From a virus, in the IMG/VR virus record IMGVR_UViG_3300027760_000064, positions 1-28,509 of that record: 28,509 nucleotides of DNA. One strand, 5' to 3'. The notes below the pieces were generated by a model. That model did not search any database, was not told the origin of the DNA, and worked only from the letters and a program-made list of their open reading frames with translations. Positions 4,906 to 28,011 of this stretch are shown here, in pieces. The translations under genes were made by a program, and so were the position numbers. Every line of letters begins with the position of its first letter. The first letter of the stretch is position 1.

Positions 4906-5394
4906 TTATGCATAAAATATGTGTTTACCTATTTTGGTAATCTTCCGTTTCTTCCAGTGCGGATCAACGTATGTAGCATGATAATACAACGCATCGTTGA
5001 GTTTTGTCAAGCGGTATCCGTCGAACAGAACCTTTTCTGCTGCCGCTTTAGAATCAAGATATTCTTTTGAGTTTGTTGGTATTTGACGTTTATACTTAAT
5101 ACACACCCATGAGAATTGGCAAGTTTTGTTTGTCTTTTGATATACAGTTCTACAGATATTATTTTTGAATAGACCAGAATTAACTCTATTCAACGTGACC
5201 TGTGCAACTGCTAATTTACCTTTAAAAGGTTCAGACTCTGCCTCATAAAAAATATTGTTTGTTAGACAATTTAACTCTTTCTGTATGTTAGGAACTAAAG
5301 AGTATGTTTCTCGCACATTTGCTATTGTTGTAGCGTTCATTAAACCAAAAATGAGAAATGTTCCTAACAAGACTTTGATAGTCTTGTGTAACAT
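4906..5394 (-). CDS. Secreted SleB-type cell wall hydrolase
   Basis: A 162-residue member of the Hydrolase_2/SleB family. Residues 1-25 form a signal peptide (basic start, hydrophobic VLLGTFLIFGL, Ala-rich end). The catalytic region begins CLTNNIFYEAESE with E51 the likely catalytic acid, continues GKLAVAQVTLNRV, and ends with the family signature YYHATYVDPHW (H139) and GKHIFYA. Several Cys (43, 81, 92, 98) could form disulfides after export. Such enzymes cut peptidoglycan in the periplasm; here it is a candidate endolysin or lysis helper. It lies directly downstream of the tmRNA with ribosome site AAGGAAACGA. Confidence 0.85.
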   Translation of the reverse strand: MLHKTIKVLLGTFLIFGLMNATTIANVRETYSLVPNIQKELNCLTNNIFYEAESEPFKGKLAVAQVTLNRVNSGLFKNNICRTVYQKTNKTCQFSWVCIKYKRQIPTNSKEYLDSKAAAEKVLFDGYRLTKLNDALYYHATYVDPHWKKRKITKIGKHIFYA

Positions 5395-5414
5395 TCGTTT
5401 CCTTATCGAGTTTT

Positions 5415-5583
5415 GAAAGTGGTAGGTTATTCTGTTACGAGGAAACCTACCGAAACCCTAAGCAGTGTTTAGGCTGCTAATGCGTATTCGCTATCATTTG
5501 CGTTTACTTGATTTATTTTTAACGACTGATATGTCGAGTAGCCAATAATTGTACTTATTACTCCGTCGAATCTAGTCAGGCCC
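5415..5583 (-). ncRNA. ssrA: tmRNA coding piece
   Basis: It starts GGGCCTGACTAGATTCGACG, the canonical tmRNA 5' pattern with the TTCGACG D-loop-like sequence. It carries H2, the tag frame (5501-5469) and a closing hairpin GGTAGGTT...AACCTACC (5451-5421). The true 3' terminus is not determinable; 5415 is chosen just after the hairpin. Confidence 0.85.
5469..5501 (-). other. ssrA: tmRNA proteolysis-tag reading frame, ANDSEYALAA-stop
   Basis: Resume codon GCA (5501-5499) is preceded by TAAAC, comparable to TAGTC before GCA in E. coli. Ten codons encode ANDSEYALAA and end at TAA (5471-5469). The ALAA end is the degron recognised by ClpXP-type proteases. Confidence 0.92.
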
Positions 5584-5654
5584 ATCAGAAGCATACTGTT
5601 TGGAACTTTTATTATGAGCATTGTTATCTCATTCACCAGTAGACAATACACTTC
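5584..5654 (-). other. ssrA: tmRNA intervening segment removed on processing
   Basis: These 71 nt separate the CCA end of the acceptor piece from the GGG start of the coding piece. In permuted tmRNAs this segment is cut out by tRNA-processing enzymes, leaving two RNA chains held together by pairing. RNase P cutting before G5583 is inferred. Confidence 0.75.
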
Positions 5655-5725
5655 TGGTGGACCTGGTGGGATTCGCACCCACGTCCGAAATACCTTTCTA
5701 AAAATCAGTTTACTACCATTGAGAA
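5655..5725 (-). ncRNA. ssrA: tmRNA acceptor piece
   Basis: This roughly 71-nt segment holds the 3' strand of H2, the tRNA-like T-arm, the 3' half of the acceptor stem, discriminator A and CCA. Its 5' end is predicted from the promoter at 5732-5760 (start near 5725). The CCA end must be produced by cleavage at 5655. Confidence 0.85.
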
Positions 5726-5731
5726 GTATTT

Positions 5732-5760
5732 AGTATATCAGGACTTGGCGAAGTTGTCAA
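5732..5760 (-). promoter_or_regulatory. sigma70-type promoter of the tmRNA
   Basis: TTGACA (5760-5755), a 17-bp spacer and TATACT (5737-5732) predict a start near 5725, exactly where the acceptor piece should begin. The -35 box contains the TGA stop codon of the tail-fibre gene. Confidence 0.8.
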
Positions 5761-15672: not shown

Positions 15673-15721
15673 ATTATACACACGGTCTTGTCAAGTGTCA
15701 ATCGTGTTGTTTTCACACAAC
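15673..15721 (-). promoter_or_regulatory. Early promoter P1 with GTTGT-N6-ACAAC dyad
   Basis: On the minus strand: dyad GTTGT-GTGAAA-ACAAC (15721-15706), 4 bp, TTGACA (15701-15696), 17-bp spacer, TATAAT (15678-15673), then a leader with GAGAAAACAGAAGGAAA. It is the only minus-strand member of the ten-promoter family. Confidence 0.85.
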
Positions 15722-16507: not shown

Positions 16508-16575
16508 GTTGTAACCATACAACGAGTGTTGTTTTTACACAACACGCTTGACTTTTCTTCGGACCAGAGTAGAAT
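16508..16575 (+). promoter_or_regulatory. Early promoter P2 with two dyads
   Basis: Dyads GTTGT-AACCAT-ACAAC (16508-16523) and GTTGT-TTTTAC-ACAAC (16528-16543), 20 bp apart; TTGACT (16548-16553), 16-bp spacer, TAGAAT (16570-16575). The leader has GACGAAAACCGACAGGAAA. Confidence 0.85.
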
Positions 16576-16608
16576 GGTACCTGTTGTGACGAAAACCGAC
16601 AGGAAAAT

Positions 16609-16806
16609 ATGAATCTCACCGAAGCCAAAAGAATTCTGGATGTTGCTATTGTCAACCTCAATGTTGATCCTAATATCTCTATGTGGGATGCAATGGATAA
16701 ATTGGTTGCTGTCGGTAAAAACAATTTGCGAGCGGATGTATATACCGCATATTGTATTGTAATGGATGAAATGTCATCCCAACGTGGTTTTAATGGTGGA
16801 TATTGA
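16609..16806 (+). CDS. Hypothetical protein
   Basis: A 65-residue helical protein (MNLTEAKRILDVAIVNLNVD...AMDKLVAVGKNN). First gene behind promoter P2, with AGGAAA upstream. Not recognised. Confidence 0.6.
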   Translation: MNLTEAKRILDVAIVNLNVDPNISMWDAMDKLVAVGKNNLRADVYTAYCIVMDEMSSQRGFNGGY

Positions 16807-16807
16807 A

Positions 16808-17044
16808 ATGGGTTTCGAAAAAAACATATTGAATAAGATTGCACCAATCCTAGAATCTGGTGATCATGCCGACTTTTTTAATGGTACTCTTTTTGTATCA
16901 TGTAATGATGTTAAGGCTAAATTGATTGCTCGCCAACTACAAGAGCAATGTTATGCTCGGATTGGTATTTCTAAAATAGAACCTGGCCAATACGCTTTTG
17001 ATTTTCAAGCGTCAAATAAGAATGCCAAATTCAATTATGTATAA
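16808..17044 (+). CDS. Hypothetical protein
   Basis: A 78-residue protein starting MGFEKNILNKIAPILESGDH. The start at 16808 is one base after the previous stop and has GGTGGA upstream. An alternating beta/helix pattern is visible (GTLFVSCNDVKAKLIARQLQ). Not recognised. Confidence 0.5.
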   Translation: MGFEKNILNKIAPILESGDHADFFNGTLFVSCNDVKAKLIARQLQEQCYARIGISKIEPGQYAFDFQASNKNAKFNYV

Positions 17045-17267
17045 ACTACCCATGGGTATATGCCCTGCTTGCAATGGCGATAAAACAGATTGCCACAATT
17101 GTGGTGGACAATATATGTACGGTACGCCAAAAGGCGAAGTACCATTGCGTCTCGATGGCACACCTTGTTTGCATGACTATGCTCATTCATTGTTGAATAG
17201 GCGCACCCTCCACAAATATACCTGTGAGTATTGTTTTGATTCTTTCACTATTGATTCGGGTGATTGA
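17037..17267 (+). CDS. Small zinc-finger protein
   Basis: A 76-residue protein with two Cys clusters: C9-x2-C12...C19-x2-C22 followed by GG, resembling a DnaJ-type zinc knuckle, and C63-x2-C66 near the end, with C44 and H46 between them. Probably two zinc sites. The ATG overlaps the preceding stop (ATGTATAA). A nucleic-acid or protein-binding role is inferred; no family name can be given. Confidence 0.55.
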   Translation: MYKLPMGICPACNGDKTDCHNCGGQYMYGTPKGEVPLRLDGTPCLHDYAHSLLNRRTLHKYTCEYCFDSFTIDSGD

Positions 17268-17269
17268 CC

Positions 17270-17317
17270 GTTGCGTGAAAACAACACGCTTGACACCCGA
17301 CGGAATCCGTGTAGAAT
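17270..17317 (+). promoter_or_regulatory. Early promoter P3
   Basis: Dyad GTTGC-GTGAAA-ACAAC (17270-17285), 4 bp, TTGACA (17290-17295), 16-bp spacer, TAGAAT (17312-17317). Unlike its relatives, the sequence after the -10 does not keep the ATTCTGTGGTCGAG leader. Confidence 0.8.
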
Positions 17318-17324
17318 GGATTAC

Positions 17325-17465
17325 ATGATGAAGACACACACCAAACCACTGATCGGCCACGTGCCGAGACCGCATTGTCGGACACCGATCAAACCTGGTG
17401 TGCGGCATTCTATTAAAACAAAATACAATCGTAAACCTAAACATAAGGAAGTTTATTGTGGGTAA
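17325..17465 (+). CDS. Small very basic protein, possibly leaderless
   Basis: A 46-residue protein with 12 Lys/Arg and a single acidic residue, rich in Pro and His (MMKTHTKPLIGHVPRPHCRT). A nucleic-acid-binding role is plausible. The first ATG lies only 7 bp after the -10 of P3, so the transcript would have almost no leader and no Shine-Dalgarno; alternatively this stretch is an untranslated leader of the next gene, which it overlaps. Confidence 0.45.
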   Translation: MMKTHTKPLIGHVPRPHCRTPIKPGVRHSIKTKYNRKPKHKEVYCG

Positions 17466-17697
17466 AATGTCTGCATTGGCATTGGATATTGAAGAGTCAC
17501 TATGTGCTGGTGATGATATTGGCGATATTGCAATTCGTTATGGCGTCACCGTTAATGATGTTCTTAATATTAAAGAGCATATGATGGATTCTATTGATGA
17601 TTATAATGATTCAATGGATGGTGATTTTGATACTGCCATGGCCTCTGCTGGTTATGGTACCGATGAAGATTATGGTTGTTATGGCGATGATTATTAA
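17458..17697 (+). CDS. Acidic protein with helix-turn-helix-like start
   Basis: A 79-residue protein from GTG (GGAAG 6 bp upstream); an ATG three codons later is possible. The first half (IEESLCAGDDIGDIAIRYGV, TVNDVLNIKEHM) looks like a short HTH; the second half is acidic, ending EDYGCYGDDY. Similar tails occur in T4-like phage proteins. Function unknown. Confidence 0.55.
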   Translation: MGKMSALALDIEESLCAGDDIGDIAIRYGVTVNDVLNIKEHMMDSIDDYNDSMDGDFDTAMASAGYGTDEDYGCYGDDY

Positions 17698-17901
17698 ATG
17701 AAGTATTGTTGGCCTAAGAAACTATATTATGTCCGATGCCGTTGGATTGATTATCCCAACGGTGGTGGTCGAAACTTTATTGCCACTCCGCACCTGGGTC
17801 GTGCTCGTTACTATGCCAAACGATTGCCTTTAAAAATACGGCAAATTGATGTCCGTATTCGTGGTAAAAAACCGTATGTACTAAAAAATAGTTGGTTATA
17901 A
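17698..17901 (+). CDS. Small basic protein
   Basis: A 67-residue Lys/Arg/Tyr-rich protein (MKYCWPKKLYYVRCRWIDYP, RARYYAKRLPLKIRQ), starting directly after the previous stop. Not recognised; RNA or DNA contact is possible from charge alone. Confidence 0.55.
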   Translation: MKYCWPKKLYYVRCRWIDYPNGGGRNFIATPHLGRARYYAKRLPLKIRQIDVRIRGKKPYVLKNSWL

Positions 17902-17902
17902 A

Positions 17903-17926
17903 ATGAAAAAGTCTTTTATTAAATAA
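17903..17926 (+). pseudogene. Seven-codon remnant of the 19515 gene start
   Basis: ATG...TAA encodes MKKSFIK. The gene at 19515 starts MKKAFIKQ, and the eighth codon CAA there is TAA here. It looks like a decayed copy of that gene's 5' end left on the left side of the halogenase insert. Confidence 0.5.
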
Positions 17927-17939
17927 GAGAGTATAATAT

Positions 17940-19499
17940 ATGAAGATAGTTATTGTCGGCGGCGGTACCGCTGGTTGGATTGCAGCACTAATGATCAGTA
18001 AAAGGCATCCATATCACGAAGTTGCTGTAATAGAATCTAGTAAAATAGGCATTATCGGTGTGGGTGAAAGTACCACAGGCCGAATGACGGATATTCTAGT
18101 AAATTTTGTTCAAGATTTCGGTTGCAATCATGATGAATTTATTGTTGAAACCGGTTCAACATTGAAATATGGCATTCGCCATAAGGGCTGGACAAACAAT
18201 ATCAATCGATCATATTTTGGACCTATTGATGGATCTGATACGAGAAATTCTGTTCCTGACCCATTATTTTCATGGGGATTAAACAGATTAAACAACAATG
18301 ATCTTAACACTATTTCCAAATGCGGTTATTGGGTAAACAACGGTCTTTCTAATTTTAACAAAAATTCAGGCAAATTTAATTCATACTGGCATGCTTTGCA
18401 CGTTGATGCTTTCCTCGTGGGCAAATATCTCAAAAAGATTACCCTAAAAAGTAAAAGCGTTTCTCATATCGATGATGAGGTTGTCAATGTATCATTAAAC
18501 AGTTCCAATGGTTGCATAAAATCAGTAACATTAAAAAGTGGTCAAGTAGTTGATGGTGATTTTTTTATAGATTGTTCAGGTTTTCATAAAGTTTTAATGA
18601 AACATTTATCCAATAATTGGATTAGTTATCAAAAAAACTTGCCGTTGAATACGGGTATGCCATTTCAAATAAAATATAAACGAAATGAAATGCCAGAACC
18701 ATACACTACTGCGTGGGCTCAAAAGAATGGATGGATGTGGCAGACTCCTCTAATGGATCGAAAAGGATGTGGATATGTATTTTCTGATGCGTACACTACA
18801 GCTGATAAAGCACAGGAAGAAATAGAAACTATCTTAGGCCATAAGATCGATCCTATTAAAGTTATTAAATTTGATGCAGGACGGCAAGAGAGTGCTTGGA
18901 TTAAAAATTGTCTAGTTATTGGATTAAGTAGTGCTCTACTAGAGCCACTAGAAGCCACTAGTATTCACTCCACTATTGTTCAATCGCAAAACTTTGTCTT
19001 TGAATATTTAAAGAGTAATATAGAAGATACAATGAATGAAGGGTCAAGACTTATTTACAATAAACGTACCGCAACATTGTATGATGATCTTAAAGATTTC
19101 TTAGTAATGCATTACATGGGAGGTAGACAAGATAGTGAATTTTGGCAAATGATTAACACTGGTATAACTAAAACTCCATACGTTGAAGAATTGTTGTTAA
19201 TGTCAAAATCTAAAGTACCTAGTGTAAATGATTTTCCTAGTTATCCAGGAAGTGCAGGATGGCCATTGTATAGTTTTGTTATGGCAGGTTTAAATTTGAT
19301 TAATCCTAAATGTGGTGAAAAAGACTTAGATATGGTATTACCTGGTAATCGAATAATGAGAGATTTAGCTCATAATCATTATTACGACTTACAAAGTCAA
19401 TGGGCTAATGAAGGACGCCAGTCTATGACATATAATGAGTTTATCTCCTACTTTAGGAATTTGCGACACAAGAACGGATTCTCAGATTTCAAGTATTGA
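17940..19499 (+). CDS. Flavin-dependent halogenase (tryptophan-halogenase family, VirX1-like)
   Basis: A 519-residue FAD enzyme. The FAD site is GGGTAGW (7-13) and GVGESTTG (40-47). The catalytic lysine position of the family corresponds to K76 in STLKYGIRHKGW. The family W-x-W-x-x-P signature is W265-M-W267-Q-T-P270, and EPLEATSIHS (335-344) is the C-terminal substrate/FAD loop. Such enzymes use FADH2, oxygen and halide to make HOX, delivered through K76. A cyanophage homologue (VirX1) iodinates many small molecules. The substrate and flavin reductase partner are unknown. It is the largest gene of the right half and interrupts a run of tiny genes; it is best read as a cargo (auxiliary metabolic) gene. 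Confidence 0.9.
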   Translation: MKIVIVGGGTAGWIAALMISKRHPYHEVAVIESSKIGIIGVGESTTGRMTDILVNFVQDFGCNHDEFIVETGSTLKYGIRHKGWTNNINRSYFGPIDGSDTRNSVPDPLFSWGLNRLNNNDLNTISKCGYWVNNGLSNFNKNSGKFNSYWHALHVDAFLVGKYLKKITLKSKSVSHIDDEVVNVSLNSSNGCIKSVTLKSGQVVDGDFFIDCSGFHKVLMKHLSNNWISYQKNLPLNTGMPFQIKYKRNEMPEPYTTAWAQKNGWMWQTPLMDRKGCGYVFSDAYTTADKAQEEIETILGHKIDPIKVIKFDAGRQESAWIKNCLVIGLSSALLEPLEATSIHSTIVQSQNFVFEYLKSNIEDTMNEGSRLIYNKRTATLYDDLKDFLVMHYMGGRQDSEFWQMINTGITKTPYVEELLLMSKSKVPSVNDFPSYPGSAGWPLYSFVMAGLNLINPKCGEKDLDMVLPGNRIMRDLAHNHYYDLQSQWANEGRQSMTYNEFISYFRNLRHKNGFSDFKY

Positions 19500-19514
19500 A
19501 ATAGGTAATATTAA

Positions 19515-19967
19515 ATGAAAAAAGCATTCATTAAACAAGTTCGTGATCTAGCGGATCAGAAGTTTAGCATTACAACGATTGCCAATAAACTTGGCAAACC
19601 TGTATTGGAAGTTTGTGAAGCAATTATGTTGCTCGACACGTTGCCTGCACCAAAGGTAAAACCACCGAAACCCGTAAAGGTTAAAGTCGTAAAACAAAAG
19701 TCTTATGTGCCAGTACCGCGCAAAGTTAAGAAAACAATTAGAGATGTTTTTACACCTAATATTTCTGAACAATCAAAGGCCACTCGGTTCATTGCAAAAC
19801 CATACAATGAGAATTTTCTTAAATCTGTTACCTTTGCCTCAATCGAAGAGGCAGTTAAATATTTGAATGAATTCACCGAGACTAAAATGCCTGCAAAAGA
19901 CTGGTCATTGGTCAATAAATTGTTTTTTGTAAAATCTAATGGTACCGTTGGTACGGTTGTATTATGA
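19515..19967 (+). CDS. HTH-type small protein with Lys/Pro linker
   Basis: A 150-residue protein. Residues 1-40 (IKQVRDLADQKFSITTIANK, LGKPVLEVCEAIML) form a resolvase-like helix-turn-helix. A Lys/Pro/Val linker follows (KPPKPVKVKVVKQK), then a C-terminal domain. Probably DNA-binding, possibly regulatory. No family name can be given. Confidence 0.55.
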   Translation: MKKAFIKQVRDLADQKFSITTIANKLGKPVLEVCEAIMLLDTLPAPKVKPPKPVKVKVVKQKSYVPVPRKVKKTIRDVFTPNISEQSKATRFIAKPYNENFLKSVTFASIEEAVKYLNEFTETKMPAKDWSLVNKLFFVKSNGTVGTVVL

Positions 19968-20299
19968 CAATACCTGAAAGATGGATTATGGTTAAGATAA
20001 CCATGGTTGAGGATGATGAAGTCTTATATAAGATCTTTGCATCTTGGAATGGTGGTTTCTTGGGTAGTAGTTCTTGGAGGATGAATTCAGGTGTAACCAA
20101 AGTTACTGAGGACGATAAGTTCTTTTATTTTGAGGGTCATTCCGGTTCACTTTATCAATGTGATAAACAATCATATGGATCCAATCCGTTTTGTCTTGAT
20201 GTATTGAAAGATTACATTGATCGCAGTAAACACCTTGCAGATATGCAGATTCTTCCTGATAATACTAATTTTATGGAGATAAACTATGGTAGCATTTAA
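19964..20299 (+). CDS. Conserved phage protein, unknown function
   Basis: A 111-residue protein with a pattern seen in many phages: PERWIMVKI, then YKIFASWNGGFLGSSSWRMN, SGVTKV and FEGHSGSLYQCDKQSYG. Predominantly beta. The ATG overlaps the upstream stop (ATGA). Function unknown. Confidence 0.62.
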   Translation: MTIPERWIMVKITMVEDDEVLYKIFASWNGGFLGSSSWRMNSGVTKVTEDDKFFYFEGHSGSLYQCDKQSYGSNPFCLDVLKDYIDRSKHLADMQILPDNTNFMEINYGSI

Positions 20300-20495
20300 A
20301 TTGCCAGACCAAGAATGGTTAGGATATGATCCAGAACGAGGTAATCTTCACGGTTATACTTTTGACCAGATGCATGAATTTGCAAAAGAAATAATCGAAC
20401 AATGCATCCGAATATGTGAATCGGGTAATGGAACTCAAATGACAAGCAATGGCGTGGCCGATGCAATTCGACAAAGATTTAAATCTGTTGCGTAA
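20286..20495 (+). CDS. Small phage protein related to the FAELI.C family
   Basis: A 69-residue protein. FAKEIIEQCIRICE and the end AIRQRFK follow the same order as the proteins at 13124, 23389 and 26620. The start overlaps the previous gene by 14 bases, preceded by GGAG. Its last codons contain the distal dyad of promoter P4. Confidence 0.55.
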   Translation: MVAFKLPDQEWLGYDPERGNLHGYTFDQMHEFAKEIIEQCIRICESGNGTQMTSNGVADAIRQRFKSVA

Positions 20496-20554
20496 AAACA
20501 ACAAGTGTTGTTCGCCAGCAACACGCTTGACGGTCGGCAGGACCAGTGTAGAAT
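20487..20554 (+). promoter_or_regulatory. Early promoter P4 with two dyads
   Basis: Dyads GTTGC-GTAAAA-ACAAC (20487-20502) and GTTGT-TCGCCA-GCAAC (20507-20522), 20 bp apart; TTGACG (20527-20532), 16-bp spacer, TAGAAT (20549-20554). The overlapping hairpin AACAAC-AAGT-GTTGTT (20497-20512) joins the two dyads. Confidence 0.85.
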
Positions 20555-20567
20555 AGTATCTGTGGTC

Positions 20568-20585
20568 GAGCGGTGGTACCCGCTC
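20568..20585 (+). promoter_or_regulatory. Leader hairpin of the ATPase gene
   Basis: GAGCGG-TGGTAC-CCGCTC begins about 13 bp after the P4 -10 box and is followed within 6 bp by a T-rich stretch (GTTTTATTA). It replaces the GAGAAAAC part of the usual leader and could act as a weak attenuator or mRNA-stabilising stem. Confidence 0.5.
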
Positions 20586-20626
20586 CGTCGTTTTATTATA
20601 TTATTGTTTTATTGAGAGAATATAAA

Positions 20627-21457
20627 ATGCCCCGTGGAATTCCCGCTGCTGGTTTTCGTAATACCAAAAACAAACTTAATGCTATCAATACGCAATTGAT
20701 GCAAATGGCTGAATCGTCCTTTTCAATCAATGAGCGATTCGGTTTCGTTTCTGATATGGTGACAATGCTCTCAAATGGTCATCAAGCGTCGGTTATTGTA
20801 TCTGGTCCTGGTGGACTTGGTAAATCGTTTACTGTAATGGATGCACTCCGCAAGTCTGGATTGCAGGACGTTACTCTATTGGACGAGGCTGATGTTGGTT
20901 CCTCAATCAATACGGCAAAGACCTTCCGTGTTATCAAGGGTTACTCTACTCCTAAAGGTCTGTATCGTATCCTTTACGAGAACCGTAATTCGGTTATTGT
21001 TTTTGATGATTGCGATTCGGTTCTTAAAGATCCAGTCTCATTGAACCTTCTTAAAGGTGCTCTCGATTCTTATTCGCGTCGTGTTATCTCTTGGCGCGCT
21101 GACTTTAAAGACGAGGATCTTCCTAATGTCTTTGAATTCAAAGGTCGTGTAGTGTTTATTTCCAATCTGCCATCCCATGCAATGGATCAGGCAGTTATTA
21201 CTCGCTCAATGGCCGTTGATCTTACAATGACCAATGCACAAAAGGTCGAGCGTATGCATCACCTGCTTGAGTTTGCCGATGACTTTTTGCCAGAGTTTGA
21301 AATGGAACATAAAGTCGATGCCGTGCTTCTTATTGAGAAATTGGTAGATCGTGTCAAAGAATTGTCGCTTCGGACTCTAATTCAAGTGACCAATATTCGC
21401 AAAGCGAATCCAAATGGCAATTGGAAGAAATTGGCAGAGTATTGTATCGCAAACTAA
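20627..21457 (+). CDS. AAA+ ATPase
   Basis: A 276-residue P-loop ATPase. Walker A is GPGGLGKS (60-67), Walker B is IVFDDCD (124-130), sensor-1 is FISN with N180, and R193 in VITRSMAVDL is a candidate arginine finger. The start at 20627 (MPRGIPAAGF) is chosen for the GAGAGAATAT spacing; an upstream in-frame start would read through the leader hairpin. A role in DNA or protein remodelling during early infection is inferred from the promoter. Distinct from the CobS-like ATPase. Confidence 0.78.
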   Translation: MPRGIPAAGFRNTKNKLNAINTQLMQMAESSFSINERFGFVSDMVTMLSNGHQASVIVSGPGGLGKSFTVMDALRKSGLQDVTLLDEADVGSSINTAKTFRVIKGYSTPKGLYRILYENRNSVIVFDDCDSVLKDPVSLNLLKGALDSYSRRVISWRADFKDEDLPNVFEFKGRVVFISNLPSHAMDQAVITRSMAVDLTMTNAQKVERMHHLLEFADDFLPEFEMEHKVDAVLLIEKLVDRVKELSLRTLIQVTNIRKANPNGNWKKLAEYCIAN

Positions 21458-21472
21458 TCGGTACCGACGGTT

Positions 21473-21541
21473 GTTGCTGGCATACGACACTTCCGTTGCT
21501 TGCCAGCAACACGTTGACAACCGACGGAACCAGAGTATAAT
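21473..21541 (+). promoter_or_regulatory. Early promoter P5
   Basis: Distal dyad GTTGC-TGGCAT-ACGAC (21473-21488, one mismatch) and proximal dyad GTTGC-TTGCCA-GCAAC (21495-21510), 22 bp apart; TTGACA (21514-21519), 16-bp spacer, TATAAT (21536-21541); leader ATTCTGTGGTCGAGAAAAAC. Confidence 0.88.
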
Positions 21542-21575
21542 AGATTCTGTGGTCGAGAAAAACGAAGGAAAAAAC

Positions 21576-21779
21576 GTGTCGAAAGTAGATTATACTGTGT
21601 TCTGTTCCGATGTTGCGGATGCCTTTGATAGTGGTTGGTCGCCCGAGGATGTTGCATCATTGTTTAAACTTCCATTGAAGGATGTCTTGTCCTTTTATGA
21701 GGATTACATTGATGCATATATGGTGGCTGTTGCCAATGATCCAGAAGTTGTGTTTGGTTTTGATAATTACCGGGAGTAA
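21576..21779 (+). CDS. Hypothetical acidic protein
   Basis: A 67-residue protein starting at GTG with AAGGA upstream, first gene behind P5. Contains SPEDVASLFKLPLKDVLSFY, a possible short HTH like that of the protein at 17458. Not recognised. Confidence 0.55.
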   Translation: MSKVDYTVFCSDVADAFDSGWSPEDVASLFKLPLKDVLSFYEDYIDAYMVAVANDPEVVFGFDNYRE

Positions 21780-21785
21780 TTGAGA

Positions 21786-22001
21786 ATGTTTGCGAAAACT
21801 GAAATTGATCTTTTGATTGAAGTCGTGGTTAAACGTGAAAAGGCTAAAGGTTATTCCGATACCGAAGCTCGTATTTTTGCGTTGGGTTACTTGTCTTCTT
21901 TTTGTCAAAAGCACTTTATTGATGCTGCACCGAAAGCAAGACAAAAACACATCCGAATGGATGTCCTTGAGCGTATTGCTTGTGTCGCAGGAGACCTATA
22001 A
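21786..22001 (+). CDS. Hypothetical helical protein
   Basis: A 71-residue protein (MFAKTEIDLLIEVVVKREKA...). The ATG at 21786 is preferred over an in-frame TTG six bases earlier because of the upstream GGGAG. It overlaps the next ATG by one base (TAATG). Not recognised. Confidence 0.55.
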   Translation: MFAKTEIDLLIEVVVKREKAKGYSDTEARIFALGYLSSFCQKHFIDAAPKARQKHIRMDVLERIACVAGDL

Positions 22002-22150
22002 TGATTGATGATACTAAACAAAAATTGATTGACCGTGTTATTGGTCAAATCGAATTGGATTTAGAAAATCGTGATGTAACGGCAATTATTGAATTGTTGG
22101 ATAAATTGTCTGTTTCTGTATTAGAATCCTATCTTCCTGAGGTTGAATAA
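22001..22150 (+). CDS. 49-residue conserved phage protein
   Basis: MIDDTKQKLIDRVIGQIELD, then LENRDVTAIIELLDKLSVSV and LESYLPEVE: matches a short acidic family recurrent in phages (IDRVIGQI...AI.ELL...P...L..YLPE). Coupled to its neighbours through TAATG overlap. Function unknown. Confidence 0.65.
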   Translation: MIDDTKQKLIDRVIGQIELDLENRDVTAIIELLDKLSVSVLESYLPEVE

Positions 22151-22152
22151 TA

Positions 22153-22572
22153 ATGGCTACTCGCTCTGCAATTGCAATTGAAACTGGTCTGCCTGAAATG
22201 GGCCCATGCGTTATCCATGCCGTATATTGTCATTGGGATGGGTATGTTGAAAACAATGGTGCATTGCTTCTAAAGTATTTCGATTCTTTGCCTTCGGCGG
22301 TTGAATTGATCAAGGGTGGTTCCATTTCATCCCTTGGTGAAGGTACTGATAATACTAAATTCTATTGCCGCGATATGGATCGTGAAATGGAACCCGCATC
22401 CGAATATGGGACTAGGGAAGAGTTTATTGAGGACTCTAATGGTCTTGAATATCTTTATATTCTAAATCAGAATGACGTTTGGGAAGTATTCAATATGAAT
22501 AAACCATGGCGTGGATGGCAACCAGTCAAAGATGCATTGGAGTATGCATTGAAGTTTGCAAAGGCAGCGTAA
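22153..22572 (+). CDS. Conserved phage protein, unknown function
   Basis: A 139-residue protein starting MATRSAIAIE, with AVYCHWDGYVENNGALLLKY, ELIKGGSISSLGEG and CRDMDRE: a family common to many tailed phages. Conserved His/Trp/Asp (YCHWDGY) suggest an active or binding site, but no function is established that I know. Confidence 0.68.
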   Translation: MATRSAIAIETGLPEMGPCVIHAVYCHWDGYVENNGALLLKYFDSLPSAVELIKGGSISSLGEGTDNTKFYCRDMDREMEPASEYGTREEFIEDSNGLEYLYILNQNDVWEVFNMNKPWRGWQPVKDALEYALKFAKAA

Positions 22573-22767
22573 ATGCTGACGCAATCCGAGATTAATGCAT
22601 TGATTGAATTCGGTAATGCACCTCGCATGGTCCAAATGCAGGTGCTTTTAAATGCTGTATTGAATCCTGCCGTATCCCATGAGTTGGTGGCATATTACCG
22701 AGAGGCGATGGAAATGTCAAGTGTTGCGTCGGAACAACAATCTGTTGCACAGGAACAACAGGGTTGA
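22573..22767 (+). CDS. Hypothetical protein whose end is read from promoter dyads
   Basis: A 64-residue helical protein (MLTQSEINALIEFGNAPRMV...). Its C-terminal SVASEQQ-SVAQEQQ repeat is encoded by the two dyads of promoter P6, and its stop codon is inside the -35 box. Not recognised. Confidence 0.55.
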   Translation: MLTQSEINALIEFGNAPRMVQMQVLLNAVLNPAVSHELVAYYREAMEMSSVASEQQSVAQEQQG

Positions 22768-22791
22768 CCTCCGGACGGACCAGTGTATAAT
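22723..22791 (+). promoter_or_regulatory. Early promoter P6 with two dyads
   Basis: Dyads GTTGC-GTCGGA-ACAAC (22723-22738) and GTTGC-ACAGGA-ACAAC (22744-22759), 21 bp apart; TTGACC (22764-22769), 16-bp spacer, TATAAT (22786-22791); leader ATTCTGAAGTCGAGAAAAC. Confidence 0.85.
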
Positions 22792-22826
22792 TGATTCTGA
22801 AGTCGAGAAAACACAAGGAAACGAAA

Positions 22827-23234
22827 ATGACACAAGCCAATCAAACCACCGCTGCGACCGAATACAAGTACACCCCATGGGATGAATTGTCCCGCCGTGA
22901 CCAATTGGCCTGTATCTATTCGGATGCATATAAGGATGCATATAATTTCCGTCCTCGTGGTGTGGATACGTCCAATTGGACTGAGGCAATGTTTGAGTCT
23001 GAATTGGCTTATTTGCAAACCGTTATTGAGCGGAATGAGAATGTTCGCCTTGAGGATGAGGCATTGGCCGCAATTCGGTTGGAAGAAACCATCGATAAAA
23101 TGATGGAATCCGGTTGTCGTAATCGTGAAATGGCAATTCGTTGGTTGCATGATATCTATGAAACCCATGGTGATACCGAATACCTTGAGTATAATCTCGG
23201 TGTCAATTATGGTTATTTTTCTGGTAAAAAGTAA
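22827..23234 (+). CDS. Conserved phage protein, unknown function
   Basis: A 135-residue protein. ELSRRDQLACIYSDAYKDAY then NFRPRGVDTS follows a pattern found in many phages of Gram-negative hosts. Mostly helical and acidic. First gene behind P6; AAGGAAACGAAA upstream of the ATG. Function unknown. Confidence 0.65.
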   Translation: MTQANQTTAATEYKYTPWDELSRRDQLACIYSDAYKDAYNFRPRGVDTSNWTEAMFESELAYLQTVIERNENVRLEDEALAAIRLEETIDKMMESGCRNREMAIRWLHDIYETHGDTEYLEYNLGVNYGYFSGKK

Positions 23235-23392
23235 TGAGTTTTTATATTAATTGTGCCGAATGCCAGAACCGGCATTTGGTTGATGAAGTCGAATTCGTTG
23301 ATGTCGAAGAGGATTACATTGGTCGGGACATTATGCATTTTGTATGTCCTGAAACTAAAATGTATTCCAAATCATTGGTGTATAAAGAATGA
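23234..23392 (+). CDS. 52-residue protein with CxxC motif
   Basis: MSFYINCAECQNRHLVDEVE...: C7-x2-C10 and a later C38 next to Pro, a possible half zinc site. Acidic. Overlaps upstream (TAATG) and downstream (ATGA) genes. Not recognised. Confidence 0.55.
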   Translation: MSFYINCAECQNRHLVDEVEFVDVEEDYIGRDIMHFVCPETKMYSKSLVYKE

Positions 23393-23562
23393 ACGAACGA
23401 ATTAAAGAACTTGCCGAACAAGTATATGGTTCAGCACACTATGATGATTTCAAGTTTGCCGAGTTGATTGTAAATGAATGTTGCCGAATGATGGTAGATT
23501 TGGAAATTCAATACCCTGCCAATCTTACGGTACTGGAGATTAAAAAGCATTTTGGAGTATAA
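23389..23562 (+). CDS. Small phage protein of the MNERI...FAELI.EC family
   Basis: A 57-residue protein: MNERIKELAEQ, FKFAELIVNECCRMM, IKKHFGV. Paralogous to 13124-13372 and, more distantly, to 20286 and 26620. Function unknown; the family is common in T4-like phages. Confidence 0.68.
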   Translation: MNERIKELAEQVYGSAHYDDFKFAELIVNECCRMMVDLEIQYPANLTVLEIKKHFGV

Positions 23563-23565
23563 TAT

Positions 23566-23760
23566 ATGAAAGTATGGGTTGATCCACCTAGTGGATGGCG
23601 ATATGGATTCCCTAAAGTATGGGATCAAGCATTGAATTCGGATTTTAATGCATGGCTTATTGCAGAAGGTTATCCGTGGAATGTAAAAGAATCTTATGGA
23701 CAATATTTTTATTGCAGGCAATGGCCAGTAGAAGATGATAATCAATTATTGAATGGATGA
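23566..23760 (+). CDS. Conserved small phage protein
   Basis: A 64-residue protein, MKVWVDPPSGWRYGFPKVWD...EGYPW: a short family widespread in phages. Aromatic-rich, probably a compact beta fold. GGAGTATAAT precedes the ATG. Function unknown. Confidence 0.65.
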   Translation: MKVWVDPPSGWRYGFPKVWDQALNSDFNAWLIAEGYPWNVKESYGQYFYCRQWPVEDDNQLLNG

Positions 23761-23767
23761 CAATACT

Positions 23768-23814
23768 GTTGTTTTTATACAACGTATTGACTTTCCACCG
23801 GACCAGCGTATAAT
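23768..23814 (+). promoter_or_regulatory. Early promoter P7
   Basis: Single dyad GTTGT-TTTTAT-ACAAC (23768-23783), TTGACT (23787-23792), 16-bp spacer, TATAAT (23809-23814); leader ATTCTGTGGTCGAGAAAAAC. Confidence 0.88.
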
Positions 23815-23846
23815 GGATTCTGTGGTCGAGAAAAACAGAGGATTTT

Positions 23847-24080
23847 ATGATTGAATACGTTTTGATTGATAAAGAGATGGTCAATTACCATTTTTCTAAA
23901 AAAGAATTGCTTGATATTGCAAAATACCATGACGATTGGGCTTTTGGTCCACGCCATGCCTATGCATATTATATCGGTCGCAATCCCGAGGATACTGCCG
24001 ATTTGAATACCTCCGATGTCGAGGATTTCATCATCCAATTCTATACCCAATTCAATGCCGAGTTTGGATTGACCTATTGA
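23847..24080 (+). CDS. Hypothetical protein
   Basis: A 77-residue acidic protein (MIEYVLIDKEMVNYHFSKKE...), only gene behind P7 before P8. AGAGGA upstream of the ATG. Not recognised. Confidence 0.58.
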   Translation: MIEYVLIDKEMVNYHFSKKELLDIAKYHDDWAFGPRHAYAYYIGRNPEDTADLNTSDVEDFIIQFYTQFNAEFGLTY

Positions 24081-24082
24081 TT

Positions 24083-24151
24083 GTTGCGTGAAAACAACGG
24101 AGGTGTCTCATCCATGCAACATCTTGACACCTCCCAGGATCCGAGTAGAAT
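24083..24151 (+). promoter_or_regulatory. Early promoter P8 with displaced dyad
   Basis: Intact dyad GTTGC-GTGAAA-ACAAC (24083-24098) lies 25 bp from TTGACA (24124-24129). A decayed proximal site ending GCAAC (24105-24120) sits 22 bp downstream. 16-bp spacer, TAGAAT (24146-24151). GGAGGTGT (24099-24106) can pair with ACACCTCC (24127-24134) across the -35. Confidence 0.82.
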
Positions 24152-24187
24152 AGATTCTGTGGTCGAGAAAACAACAGGAAATTTGGA

Positions 24188-24946
24188 ATGAAACTGCTAA
24201 CTGCTCCAGTCGGTAACCCTAAGGTTGCAAAAGGTCTTGCATCAAACTATGCAACATATATCTTGCACCTTGCACCCGCAAATTTGTCGGGTTATGAGGT
24301 TTGTGCTAAACGAACCATCGGTTGCACCGATGCTTGTTTAAACCTTGCTGGTCGTGGTGGTATGTTTAAACGTGGTGAAACCACCAATGTAATCCAACAG
24401 GCACGTATCCGCAAGACCAAATTGTTTTTCGAGGATCGTGTTGAGTTTATGCGGTTGTTGGTTGCTGATATTGAATTGGCAATTAAACAGGCGGCCAAGA
24501 AAGGTTTTACACCTGTGTTCCGTCTTAATGGTACCTCTGATATTGCATGGGAAAAGTATTCGGTGGTTCGCAATGGCGTTGCCTTTATGAATATCTTCCA
24601 TGCATTCTCGGATTGCATTTTTTATGATTACACCAAGATTCTTGGTCGTAAGATTCATGCCGCTTCCAATTACAGTCTGACCTTTTCTGCCGCTGATGGC
24701 AATGATGCCGACGTGACCAAAGCAATTGCTCAGGGTTATAATGTTGCGGTTGTTTTCGGTATCAAAAAAGGTACCGCATTCCCTGGTTCATATCTTGGTC
24801 GGTCTGTATTCAATGGTGATGATTCCGACTTGCGGTTTCTTGATCCTAAGAATGTTATTGTCGGTCTTTATGCCAAGGGTAAGGCAAAGGCTGATACCAC
24901 CGGTTTTGTAAAGTACCCAACAATCAATCTTAAACTTGCGGCTTAA
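24188..24946 (+). CDS. Conserved phage protein with cysteine cluster, unknown function
   Basis: A 252-residue protein of a family seen in diverse phages. Conserved-looking blocks: C39...GC46TDAC50LNLAGRGGMF, VFRLNGTSDIAWE, IFHAFSDCIFYDYTK, NYSLTFS, NVAVVFG, DLRFLDP and VIVGLYAKGKA. The C-x6-C-x3-C spacing could bind a metal or Fe-S cluster; repeating beta/alpha segments suggest a TIM-barrel-like fold. No established activity is known to me. First gene behind P8; CAGGAAATTTGGA precedes the ATG. Confidence 0.65.
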   Translation: MKLLTAPVGNPKVAKGLASNYATYILHLAPANLSGYEVCAKRTIGCTDACLNLAGRGGMFKRGETTNVIQQARIRKTKLFFEDRVEFMRLLVADIELAIKQAAKKGFTPVFRLNGTSDIAWEKYSVVRNGVAFMNIFHAFSDCIFYDYTKILGRKIHAASNYSLTFSAADGNDADVTKAIAQGYNVAVVFGIKKGTAFPGSYLGRSVFNGDDSDLRFLDPKNVIVGLYAKGKAKADTTGFVKYPTINLKLAA

Positions 24947-24958
24947 TAGGAATATATC

Positions 24959-25480
24959 ATGCCAAATTGGAATTCAAACCTTTTAACCGTCACTTCGGAT
25001 GATCCTGAATTGATGGCAAAGATTAAAGATGCAGCCGAGAAATCGGCCGAATCAGATTCGTTTTTTAATTTATTAGTACCTCGTCCTGAATCGGAAGAGG
25101 GTGATTGGTATTCGTGGAACGTCAACAATTGGGGTACCAAATGGGATACCAATGTTAATATCATCGACCAATCCGACAATGAAATTGTATTGTCTTTTGA
25201 TACTGCGTGGTCACCACCAATTGGTTTCTATGCTGCATTAGAGGAAATGGGTTTCGAGGTTGATGCATTTTATTATGAACCCGGTATGTGTTTTGCTGGT
25301 CGGTACATGGATGGTACCGATGATTATTACGAGTATTCAGGAATGAATTCAGAGGAAGTAAAAGAATTGCTTCCAATGGAATTAGATGAATGCTTTTGCA
25401 TTTCAGAATCAATGGCTGATTGGGAAGATGAGAATCAGGAAATAGAATTGGAAGACTATAATACAGAAGAGGAAGGGTGA
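24959..25480 (+). CDS. YubB/DUF1281-type ferredoxin-like domain protein
   Basis: A 173-residue protein. MPNWNSNLLTVTSDDPELMA, then FFNLLVPRPE and WYSWNVNNWGTKWDT match the ferredoxin-like domain of YubB/DUF1281 proteins found on plasmids and phages. The C-terminal third is very acidic (ENQEIELEDYNTEEEG). Function unknown. Probably co-transcribed with the preceding gene. Confidence 0.7.
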   Translation: MPNWNSNLLTVTSDDPELMAKIKDAAEKSAESDSFFNLLVPRPESEEGDWYSWNVNNWGTKWDTNVNIIDQSDNEIVLSFDTAWSPPIGFYAALEEMGFEVDAFYYEPGMCFAGRYMDGTDDYYEYSGMNSEEVKELLPMELDECFCISESMADWEDENQEIELEDYNTEEEG

Positions 25481-25490
25481 AGCAAGAGGT

Positions 25491-25559
25491 GTTGTGTCAA
25501 AACAACACCTTTGTTGCTTTCCAGCAACGTATTGACACCTCCCAGGACCAGTGTATAAT
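25491..25559 (+). promoter_or_regulatory. Early promoter P9 with two dyads
   Basis: Dyads GTTGT-GTCAAA-ACAAC (25491-25506) and GTTGC-TTTCCA-GCAAC (25513-25528), 22 bp apart; TTGACA (25532-25537), 16-bp spacer, TATAAT (25554-25559). The distal dyad is extended to a 9-bp stem, AGGTGTTGT/ACAACACCT (25487-25510). Confidence 0.88.
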
Positions 25560-25590
25560 AGATTCTGTGGTCAAGAAAACAGGAAATTTG

Positions 25591-25737
25591 ATGAAATACG
25601 TTGTTGTTGCGGTTGGTTCTTCGGTGTTCGGTGCATACTTCCATGAGACCGTCCTTGCGGTTTCGGCTGAGTCGGTTTCGATGCTCCATTCGATTACCGT
25701 ATCGCTTGCGCGGTCGATTGTTTCGGTCCTGTCTTAA
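25591..25737 (+). CDS. 48-residue hydrophobic peptide
   Basis: MKYVVVAVGSSVFGAYFHET..., Val/Ser/Ala-rich with only one Lys and one Arg, probably membrane-active or membrane-inserted. First gene behind P9, with AGGAAATTTG upstream. Not recognised. Confidence 0.6.
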   Translation: MKYVVVAVGSSVFGAYFHETVLAVSAESVSMLHSITVSLARSIVSVLS

Positions 25738-25753
25738 TTCTAGGGTTAATATC

Positions 25754-25999
25754 ATGCTTTGTAGTAATAAAGTGGTTTTTGCTAAGGTTGTTATGCTTCG
25801 TGAGGCATATGGTTCAATTGAGCGAATTGATCCTTCCAATGAAGGATACAAAGCGTTGGTCCAGTTCCTTAATCGCCAATCGATGGATACGTTGGTAGAA
25901 TTAGAACGTGCCAAGATTAAATGGGTTTCTGGTCTTGCCCGGAATCGCATTAACCGCATGAATTTTGCTCTGAAAAACCTCTCCGAAATGCCTGCTTAA
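25754..25999 (+). CDS. Hypothetical basic protein
   Basis: An 81-residue protein (MLCSNKVVFAKVVMLREAYG...). Helical, basic C-terminal half (ERAKIKWVSGLARNRINRMN). Start chosen at the ATG with AGGG upstream; the longer frame upstream is a shadow of the preceding gene. Not recognised. Confidence 0.58.
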   Translation: MLCSNKVVFAKVVMLREAYGSIERIDPSNEGYKALVQFLNRQSMDTLVELERAKIKWVSGLARNRINRMNFALKNLSEMPA

Positions 26000-26011
26000 T
26001 TGGTGATTATA

Positions 26012-26149
26012 ATGGATGATTTTGATTATTTTCCGTTTGTTTCTGGTGGTGATTTGGAAGCGAGTGATGCATGGTTTGAAAATGGTTGTCCTATTGACGA
26101 TATAGACAATGACGATTGGTACGATGACCAATATGAGATTGGAGAGTAA
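26012..26149 (+). CDS. 45-residue extremely acidic protein
   Basis: MDDFDYFPFVSGGDLEASDA...: 16 Asp/Glu and no Lys, Arg or His. The charge density and aromatic residues resemble DNA-mimic inhibitors in character only. Weak ribosome site (GGTGAT). Not recognised. Confidence 0.55.
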   Translation: MDDFDYFPFVSGGDLEASDAWFENGCPIDDIDNDDWYDDQYEIGE

Positions 26150-26153
26150 TGCA

Positions 26154-26324
26154 ATGGATTTTTTGATTCGTGCTCAACGGTATACTGAAGCGCGTGGTGA
26201 TGATAATTTCTTTTGTCATTATTATGTTATGTACCGTGAACATTTTTCTGTAAGGGAAAGCGTACGGAAAACAATTGCGTGGTTGTATGATGATGATGTT
26301 GCCGACTTGTTGGAGTTTCAATAA
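26154..26324 (+). CDS. Hypothetical protein
   Basis: A 56-residue protein (MDFLIRAQRYTEARGDDNFF...). GGAGAG lies 7 bp upstream of the ATG. Overlaps the next ATG by one base (TAATG). Not recognised. Confidence 0.55.
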   Translation: MDFLIRAQRYTEARGDDNFFCHYYVMYREHFSVRESVRKTIAWLYDDDVADLLEFQ

Positions 26325-26635
26325 TGGATAAAGTGATTCGTGATGGTAAAGTGGCGGTATTGTATTCGCCTGGATATGGTGCTGGTTGGTATACTTGGCA
26401 TGATGAAGAAAAGTTATTGTATGATCCGGTGATTGTCGGTATGGTTGAATCGCGCAAGTATTATACGGAAATTGTTCAGTATTGTCAGGAGCGATATGGT
26501 GACCATCGTTATTTTTCAGGTGCTGAGGACTTGACGATTGAATGGGTTGATGTTGGTCGCGAGTTTCGAATTACGGAGTATGATGGATCAGAGTCAATTG
26601 AATATAAGGATGAATTAGAATGGCACGTCGCTTGA
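26324..26635 (+). CDS. Conserved phage protein, unknown function
   Basis: A 103-residue protein: KVAVLYSPGYGAGWYTWHDE, DPVIVGMVE, then LTIEWVDVGREFRITEYDGS. This pattern recurs in many tailed phages. The Gly/Trp-rich start could be a ligand-binding loop; function unknown. Confidence 0.66.
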   Translation: MDKVIRDGKVAVLYSPGYGAGWYTWHDEEKLLYDPVIVGMVESRKYYTEIVQYCQERYGDHRYFSGAEDLTIEWVDVGREFRITEYDGSESIEYKDELEWHVA

Positions 26636-26889
26636 TTAAACGGTCACTCACCGAAAAAACGCGAGTGGACGAATTGATTGAAAGAGTGCATATGGAACTA
26701 TCGCGAGGTGGTACAATGTATTCGGTGCATGAATTCAATTATACTCTTGCAGAGTTAATTGTTGCAGAGTGTGCGAATCTAACACGGACGCAAATGTTAT
26801 CGTTTATGACAGAACCGAATGCATATACAGGTAAAGTCTTTTTAGAGGAAACAATTTACGATCATTTTAGTATGGAGAAAAAACAATGA
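26620..26889 (+). CDS. Small phage protein with LAELIV.EC motif
   Basis: An 89-residue protein with a basic start (MARRLIKRSLTEKTRVDELI). LAELIVAECANL and IYDHFSME match the order of the FAELI.EC...HFG family. It overlaps the upstream gene by 16 bases. Function unknown. Confidence 0.58.
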   Translation: MARRLIKRSLTEKTRVDELIERVHMELSRGGTMYSVHEFNYTLAELIVAECANLTRTQMLSFMTEPNAYTGKVFLEETIYDHFSMEKKQ

Positions 26890-27140
26890 AATATATTATG
26901 GCACCAGTATTGGTTATGACAGTATTGGCATCGGGTTGTGCATCTAGCCCATCACAACCACCTAAACATTATCCACGAGAGTTTACAGAACCAACTTCAA
27001 TGCATAGGACAGAAGTAATTCAGGCAGTAAGGCAATGCGTAAATGCAAAGCTAAAACCTCAGATTGAATATTTGCCAGTAAAAACAGACCAGGGTCGAGT
27101 AATTACACCAATTCAAGTGCATTGCGATAACCCATATTGA
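26886..27140 (+). CDS. Putative lipoprotein
   Basis: An 84-residue protein with a lipoprotein signal: MKYIMAPVLVMTVLASGC, lipid Cys C18. The mature part is short and Pro-rich (SQPPKHYPREFTEP), with IEYLPVKTDQGR and IQVHCDNPY. Attachment to an inner or outer membrane leaflet facing the periplasm is expected; spanin or superinfection-exclusion roles are possible but unproven. The ATG overlaps the upstream stop (ATGA). Confidence 0.65.
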   Translation: MKYIMAPVLVMTVLASGCASSPSQPPKHYPREFTEPTSMHRTEVIQAVRQCVNAKLKPQIEYLPVKTDQGRVITPIQVHCDNPY

Positions 27141-27149
27141 GATATTAAA

Positions 27150-27485
27150 ATGACGGTAGTAAATACACTCCAATCCCAAGGTATTACATTATCAATGGTT
27201 CAACTAGCAATTCTAGGTGTAATCGTGATATATATTATTGGGATGTTTTGGAAGATATTAGTTACAGGTGCAGCAGTAATAGGTATTGCAATGGTAATGC
27301 TTCATTCTGAGAATACTACACCATTACCGACTGCTAATGCGAATGCTAGTCCACCAGCAATAGTAGAACCAACAACCAATCACAATAAACCACCAACTGA
27401 TTTTATGGAAGATTGTACCAAAGGTGCAGAGTATTCCAAAGACCAATGCGAAAAGATTTGGATTGGTGAACCAGAGGAGACTTAA
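27150..27485 (+). CDS. Membrane protein with Pro/Asn-rich soluble tail
   Basis: A 111-residue protein with one or two membrane helices (MVQLAILGVIVIYIIGMFW and VTGAAVIGIAMVML). A Pro/Asn/Thr-rich linker follows, then a short end with two Cys (EDCTKGAEYSKDQCEKIW). Adjacent to the lipoprotein gene, so the two may act together at the envelope. Not recognised. Confidence 0.58.
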   Translation: MTVVNTLQSQGITLSMVQLAILGVIVIYIIGMFWKILVTGAAVIGIAMVMLHSENTTPLPTANANASPPAIVEPTTNHNKPPTDFMEDCTKGAEYSKDQCEKIWIGEPEET

Positions 27486-27487
27486 TA

Positions 27488-27763
27488 ATGTTTAAGGTAA
27501 CATGGAAATTCAAGAATGATCATATATGGGAGAAGTCTTTTGATACACCAGAATTGAGAGATTCTTTTATCAATTCAGTAGGATTAGTTTCACATCCAGA
27601 TATTGTGGAAGTTACATTAGTATATCCGGATTCTAGTATAAAGGATATAGTAATCAAGGATGTGAGGATTAATATTAGTCCAGATTATTCTAATATGGAT
27701 AGTATGGGTCATGTACCAATAGGAGTTCCAACATCACCTTTTTGGACCATAAGTCATATTTAG
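27488..27763 (+). CDS. Hypothetical protein
   Basis: A 91-residue beta-rich protein (MFKVTWKFKNDHIWEKSFDT...). GGAGACTTAATA precedes the ATG. Last gene of the operon; no terminator hairpin is evident after it. Not recognised. Confidence 0.58.
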   Translation: MFKVTWKFKNDHIWEKSFDTPELRDSFINSVGLVSHPDIVEVTLVYPDSSIKDIVIKDVRINISPDYSNMDSMGHVPIGVPTSPFWTISHI

Positions 27764-27768
27764 TCGAG

Positions 27769-27776
27769 CATAAATA
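27769..27776 (+). promoter_or_regulatory. Candidate late box CATAAATA
   Basis: One base from the T4 late consensus and intergenic, followed by AGAGG. The nearest downstream gene is 270 bp away and has its own early promoter. Confidence 0.4.
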
Positions 27777-27943
27777 GAGGTTATTTATTGTCGCAAACCT
27801 TGTCGCAATAGTGTAATTAAGTGTCGAAAAGTGTTTAATTGTGTGTGAATAAATAGGCGCATTCCGAGAATACCACCGGGACTAAACACCTGTTTCCGAT
27901 AAAGAAATTTTATATTATATCACGAATTTCCGAGACTGTCACC

Positions 27944-28011
27944 GTATCATTTCCGCAACACTTCCGTTGTTTCCATACAACGCTTGACAATTCTCTCCAC
28001 CAGAGTAGAAT
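27944..28011 (+). promoter_or_regulatory. Early promoter P10
   Basis: Decayed distal site GTATC-ATTTCC-GCAAC (27944-27959) and dyad GTTGT-TTCCAT-ACAAC (27966-27981), 22 bp apart; TTGACA (27984-27989), 16-bp spacer, TAGAAT (28006-28011); leader ATTCTGTTGTGAAGAAAAAC. Confidence 0.85.

Follow-up and report, generated by a model that had tools for sequence, protein, structure and literature searches.

The 28,509-bp stretch of DNA analysed here (positions 1 to 28,509 of the IMG/VR virus record IMGVR_UViG_3300027760_000064; hereafter, the window) comes from an uncultivated freshwater T4-like myophage and contains ten near-consensus sigma70 promoters (P1-P10) that are each associated with one or two copies of a 16-bp dyad, GTTGY-N6-RCAAC, the core of an 18-bp palindrome, TGTTGY-N6-RCAACA (the full site). 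The initial annotation of this DNA had treated the arrangement as a system of a single phage, but the dyad is common to many freshwater T4-like phages and is present also in some unrelated ones. The interpretation favored here, with evenly divided confidence, is that these promoters constitute a multi-operator early regulon in which dimers of a single regulator, possibly host-encoded, would contact RNA polymerase and would act more likely as an activator than as a repressor.

The window was scanned for the dyad both exactly and with two mismatches allowed, with the same pattern read backwards as the control. The exact scan identifies 14 perfect dyads, whereas 400 dinucleotide shuffles yield 0.115 on average and at most 3, and the control pattern has no matches. 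All 14 dyads are assigned to P1-P10, and among the window sequences that match TTGAC-N16-19-TA[TG][AG]AT, only one, located on the minus strand at 3709 within a coding region, lacks a dyad. The -35 element TTGAC is present in 10 of the 10 promoters, the -10 element is TATAAT or TAGAAT, and the spacer is 16 bp long in P2-P10 and 17 bp in P1. A longer IMG/VR contig of the same phage, G047 (88,946 bp), contains window positions 1-26408 at 99.996% identity; its 13 dyads are all located between 78.2 and 88.1 kb, and the first 78 kb are devoid of them. When the two sequences are combined (91 kb), all 14 dyads fall within the last 13 kb, so that dyads away from promoters are rare, which the initial annotation had made a point of its case. 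The link to promoters extends to the larger sample that consists of 12 long contigs and the window (750 kb): it contains 123 dyads versus 5 reversed controls, and a promoter scoring >=10/12 is found within 60 bp of 107 of the 123 dyads versus one of the 5 controls. With 107 of 123 sites near a sigma70 promoter and none elsewhere in the genome of the window phage, the coordinated operator system proposed in the initial annotation is borne out.

The consensus derived from 253 promoter-linked sites is T-GTTG[T/C]-W-T-W-W-A-W-[A/G]CAAC-A, that is, TGTTGY-N6-RCAACA. The distance between the dyad and the -35 element peaks at 4, 14 and 24 bp. The distal sites show a phase of 3.7 at the 10.5-bp period (R 0.58, p 2e-4, with some of these sites being tandem partners of proximal ones and hence not fully independent), which places them on the same face of the DNA as the proximal sites. 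With the most common gap of 4 bp and the 16-bp spacer, the center of the operator is located near -46, the transcription start being assumed. In IMG/VR, single sites predominate; tandem pairs are common, with a period mainly of 16-22 bp and not only 20-22 bp. Thus, the tandem phasing at two helical turns that the initial annotation emphasized is true of the window but is not a general rule, and the phase relative to the -35 element (approximately 4, 14 and 24 bp) is the stronger general regularity.

All the promoters and dyads listed in the initial annotation are present in the sequence, with the tandem spacings it gave; its range of 16508-28011 encloses P2-P10, all on the plus strand, but not P1, which is on the minus strand with its dyad at 15706-15721. 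Four promoters have two perfect dyads each, namely P2 (16508..16575; dyads 16508-16523 and 16528-16543, 20 bp apart; promoter 16548-16575, TTGACT/TAGAAT), P4 (20487..20554; dyads 20487-20502 and 20507-20522, 20 bp apart; promoter 20527-20554), P6 (22723..22791; dyads 22723-22738 and 22744-22759, 21 bp apart; promoter 22764-22791) and P9 (25491..25559; dyads 25491-25506 and 25513-25528, 22 bp apart; promoter 25532-25559, TTGACA/TATAAT). The P6 dyads overlap the 3' end of an open reading frame (ORF) at 22573-22767. In P5 (21473..21541; promoter 21514-21541, TTGACA/TATAAT), the perfect dyad at 21495-21510 is accompanied, 22 bp away, by a distal dyad with one mismatch (21473-21488). Two promoters contain decayed copies: P8 (24083..24151; promoter 24124-24151) combines an intact distal dyad at 24083-24098, 25 bp from the -35 element, with a decayed proximal copy at 24105-24120, and P10 (27944..28011; promoter 27984-28011) combines a perfect dyad at 27966-27981 with a decayed distal copy at 27944-27959, 22 bp apart. 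A single perfect dyad is found in P1 (15673..15721, minus strand; -35 TTGACA at 15701, -10 TATAAT), P3 (17270..17317; dyad 17270-17285, promoter 17290-17317) and P7 (23768..23814; dyad 23768-23783, promoter 23787-23814).

The general layout of these cassettes is one or two operators, a near-consensus sigma70 promoter, a leader, and then one or a few small genes; in 8 of the 10 cassettes, a Shine-Dalgarno sequence with a start codon follows 22-31 nt after the presumed transcription start. The cassettes of the window are homologous to each other, with the motif GGACCAG shared by the promoter spacers and GATTCTGTGGTCGAGAAAA shared by the leaders downstream of the -10 element; both motifs may carry additional signals. 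Directly after the presumed P4 start, there is a strong terminator-like hairpin (20568-20593, plus strand; -10.7 kcal/mol for the first 40 nt), a possible attenuator that is present in no other cassette.

Comparison with three relatives (G027, G028 and G029), which are about 90-96% identical to the window over long stretches, shows that dyads are retained at every alignable orthologous promoter, and thus the conservation in related phages on which the initial annotation had let its claim depend is there. In particular, the P1 dyad is kept in G027 and G029, whereas G028 keeps the P7 dyad, both P9 dyads and the proximal P10 dyad, and shares with the window the state of P8, with the distal dyad intact and the proximal one decayed. 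In G027, a 20-bp deletion in P2 merges both dyads into a single perfect dyad, and in G029, the loop and the promoter spacer of P3 are changed, with the dyad arms intact. Within the window, the arms are invariant, and 13 distinct N6 sequences are found among the 14 sites. From the P2 fusion, the P3 replacement and the P8 state in the relatives, it follows that the dyad arms are under selection and that the cassettes themselves recombine.

A scan of IMG/VR for the dyad adjoining a promoter, in which the matches seen are a lower bound, identifies, among the matches listed, mostly T4-like contigs along with some that are not T4-like. Individual whole contigs contain 14 sites in 150 kb (G011), 20 in 39 kb (G012) and 14 in 110 kb (G010), against 0-3 matches of the reversed pattern. 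To avoid motif-based selection, 21 contigs (1.40 Mb) were picked by gp32 similarity; these contain 56 dyads versus 5 controls and include clear positives (G047, G048 and G051) as well as clear negatives (G052 and G053). The named phages searched for GTTGY-N6-RCAAC are at background, with no matches in T4, S-PM2, P-SSM2, HTVC008M and Limnohabitans phage DC31, one each in Mosig and Delftia phage phiW-14, and three in KVP40. The Methylophilales phage Melnitz EXVC044M (MZ577097) has two dyad matches in 141.5 kb and no perfect 18-bp sites, and within the 49 kb tested, its strong promoters have no dyad. Beyond the T4-like phages, one tandem-dyad promoter heads the gene set of G005, a podovirus-like phage in which shared proteins are almost lacking; the relatives of G005 are mostly at background (17 dyads versus 16 controls in 861 kb, 11 of the dyads with a promoter), and therefore the use of the dyad in this group is occasional. 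Another non-T4-like phage, G042 (L304-L306), has a large promoter set with a related but different dyad, GT[GTA]GY-N6-RC[CAT]AC; at most of these promoters, GT[GTA]GY half-sites occur in mismatched combinations 2 or 13-14 bp before the -35 element. Judging by the sequence of its sites, the G042 dyad is a natural specificity variant.

Under the favored mechanism, dimers of one sequence-specific protein would bind, always on one face of the DNA, to operators that are placed at one-turn steps upstream of the -35 element (centers near -46, -56 and -66 relative to the presumed start), and the bound dimers would contact the host RNA polymerase early in infection. Activation seems more likely than repression because the sites adjoin the promoter core without covering it and keep a helical phase with the promoter. 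Since the site is common to unrelated phages, such as the podovirus-like G005, a host protein is a serious candidate for the binder, which could be a host regulator toward which phages that are unrelated but infect the same freshwater hosts have converged. A more specific version, in which one conserved host regulator reads TGTTGY-N6-RCAACA in several unrelated freshwater phage lineages, and lytic phages thereby gate their first wave of transcription on a physiological signal of the host, is put forward only tentatively, as somewhat less than probable.

Several observations weigh against the proposal of an activator, possibly host-encoded. The promoters are already near-consensus, and such hexamers weaken the case for the need of an activator; the operator center is near -46 and not at the standard class II position of -41.5; the phasing test has the partial dependence between distal and proximal sites indicated above; and more than half of the strong promoters in the dyad-bearing phages have no dyad. 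Furthermore, a search for the strict combination of the dyad and a consensus promoter across ~85,000 bacterial and archaeal species, each represented by a single genome, yields only 5 scattered matches, in metagenome-assembled genomes, so that a host regulon of the same architecture is not visible. What the computation shows is the operator, with its promoter linkage, phase, conservation and distribution; the dimers, the contact with RNA polymerase, activation, early timing and a particular binder are inferred. A small winged-helix protein that is common to many T4-like phages with dyads would fit a regulator encoded by the phages themselves.

The strongest alternative, although on balance we consider it doubtful, is that a repressor or autoregulator encoded by the phage uses the dyads as its operators, in early shut-off or superinfection control, with this winged-helix family as the candidate. 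The family includes proteins of 108-178 amino acids (a member is encoded at L161:5028-5351) that have been seen only in uncultivated phage contigs; they match nothing in the named phages, and sequence comparison reveals no closely related protein of solved structure. The predicted fold (model pLDDT 80.8) is nearest to the DNA-binding domain of BirA (Z 8.1, root-mean-square deviation 2.4 over 66 residues), but for a winged helix, a Z of about 8 is not specific. Among the long contigs picked by gp32 similarity, the protein is present in those with 3-11 dyads (G048, G049 and G051) and absent where there are 0-1 (G050, G052 and G053); searches of Melnitz, Mosig, HTVC008M and S-PM2 did not detect it, and 62 loci fetched by the protein rather than by the motif contain 157 dyads versus 6 controls. 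However, neither the 88.9-kb G047 contig of the window phage nor those loci of its close relatives that were sampled yielded this protein, and the same holds for G005, G010 and G042, which are dyad phages outside the T4-like group; a dyad is located within 400 bp upstream of the winged-helix gene in just 4 of the 62 loci. Moreover, specificities of phage repressors usually diverge fast, whereas the dyad site is common to unrelated phages.

Other candidates for the binder fare worse. Another family of small winged-helix proteins (G010_48670) has a scattered distribution that does not follow that of the dyad; for three helix-turn-helix-like ORFs of the window (17398, 19515 and 21414), there is no Pfam match supporting DNA binding; and Fis, LexA and NtcA do not fit the site in geometry or sequence. 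When 127 small G011 proteins are scanned against Pfam and PHROG, the 25 top families listed include no dedicated transcription factor.

That the palindromes are RNA stem-loops which terminate upstream transcripts, in ordinary promoter early stem-loop (PeSL) cassettes that have no protein reader, appears very improbable. The layout does resemble that of PeSLs, with a repeated strong sigma70 promoter and a palindrome between the small genes of a hypervariable region and with copies that recombine, and the 24-mers around the dyads fold, albeit weakly (median -5.5 kcal/mol). But among 153 distinct sites, the arm positions 5 and 12 vary independently, without pairing covariation, so that mismatched C..A arms are as frequent as expected by chance (Fisher p 0.84), and at the inner dyad positions, pairing is rarer than in shuffled sequences. 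Only 0.7% of the sites have a U-tract after the dyad, many arms in G042 mismatch, and helical phasing to the -35 element is not expected from a terminator. The covariation, U-tract and phasing results lead us to reject the hairpin; as the arms vary independently and the U-tract is missing, the dyad reads, at the level of sequence, as a protein operator and not as a terminator. The independence of the left and right variable positions also agrees with the suggestion in the initial annotation that a symmetric, probably dimeric, protein reads the half-sites. Least credible of all is a passive origin, whereby the palindrome would be kept only through recent descent as the cassettes are duplicated and spread by recombination, because, even though the cassettes of the window are clearly homologous, with shared GGACCAG spacers and GATTCTGTGGTCGAGAAAA leaders, the arms are invariant while nearly all N6 loops differ, the same arms are found in very different cassettes of unrelated phages, and a perfect dyad survives both the P2 collapse and the P3 replacement.

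The assignment of the window phage to T4-like myophages follows from the markers gp32, PhoH, CobS and tryptophan halogenase as well as from the gene order. Its gp32 is closest to those of pelagimyophages and cyanophages, and its gene set resembles that of the isolate Melnitz. The phage carries a transfer-messenger RNA (tmRNA) gene (5378-5747, minus strand; tag ANDSEYALAA) that is permuted and of the betaproteobacterial type, which suggests a betaproteobacterial host. The tryptophan halogenase gene (17940-19499, plus strand) is located within the early-type region and has cyanophage homologs, e.g., in S-RIM44 and S-PM2, at ~37% identity. A large repeat protein (5757-8165, minus strand) contains fibronectin-like TVPGAPTIG repeats, and this repeat region aligns with relatives in several registers.

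According to the usual view, the early genes of T4-like phages are driven by strong but otherwise plain sigma70 promoters. A shared, phased operator would imply an extra layer of control at the first transcription step in a whole group of abundant freshwater phages, and if the regulator belongs to the host, lytic phages would tie the first wave of transcription to host physiology. In practical terms, the motif can serve as bait for the protein that binds it and as a guide to the early promoters of uncultivated phages; perhaps it can also connect phages with the hosts that carry the regulator.

A literature search for the written motif yielded no description of it in the papers searched, in agreement with the initial annotation, which could not match the system to a known phage regulator; several characterized systems are nevertheless similar in part. 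The isolated T4-like relative Melnitz EXVC044M has PhoH, a PDDEXK nuclease, tmRNA and gp32 in common with the window phage but differs in that the dyads are at background there. In the middle promoters of T4, a MotA box near -30 replaces the -35 element. These are likewise a coordinated class of T4-like promoters that are read with a regulator, but in the window a good -35 element is kept (TTGAC in 10 of 10), the site lies upstream of it, and no MotA-type box stands in its place. NtcA binds GTA-N8-TAC sites, and NtcA-dependent promoters occur in cyanophages. This is a case of T4-like phage promoters with sites for a host regulator, and TTG-N8-CAA, which by the definition of the motif is contained in all the sites, shares the 3-N8-3 half-site geometry of CRP, FNR and NtcA. 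However, the half-site here is GTTGY, a near-consensus -35 element is present, and the center, the start being assumed, is near -46 instead of the -41.5 that is characteristic of class II sites of the CRP/FNR type.

Two other systems resemble the one described here. The conserved inverted repeats of phiC31 and the stoperators of mycobacteriophage L5 belong to temperate phages with a known repressor; in these systems, one operator that is repeated at many promoters or intergenic sites is read by one protein. In the window phage, too, a single palindromic operator recurs many times at promoters, with 14 sites in the early-type region and none in the other 78 kb, but the phage is T4-like, the repressor is only a candidate, and the site is common to unrelated phages. 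The PeSL cassettes of T4-like phages were reportedly described by Arbiol et al. in 2010 and by Comeau et al. in 2014. PeSLs and the cassettes described here have several features in common: the early promoters are of the strong sigma70 type and are directly preceded by a palindrome, the unit is repeated in a hypervariable region of small genes, and the copies recombine. The window contains ten such repeated intergenic promoters, and recombination between cassettes is evident from the 20-bp collapse of P2 in G027 and the replacement of P3 in G029. The difference is that, in place of an effective intrinsic terminator, of which the sites show neither the U-tract (0.7%) nor the covariation of the arms, there is a fixed 18-bp operator of the protein-binding type that is in helical phase with the -35 element. 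PeSLs of T4-like phages are mentioned in PMC4503421. Thus, while the motif itself has no description in the literature searched, the layout of these cassettes is PeSL-like, and their workings would be akin to those of the multi-operator regulons of phiC31 and L5.

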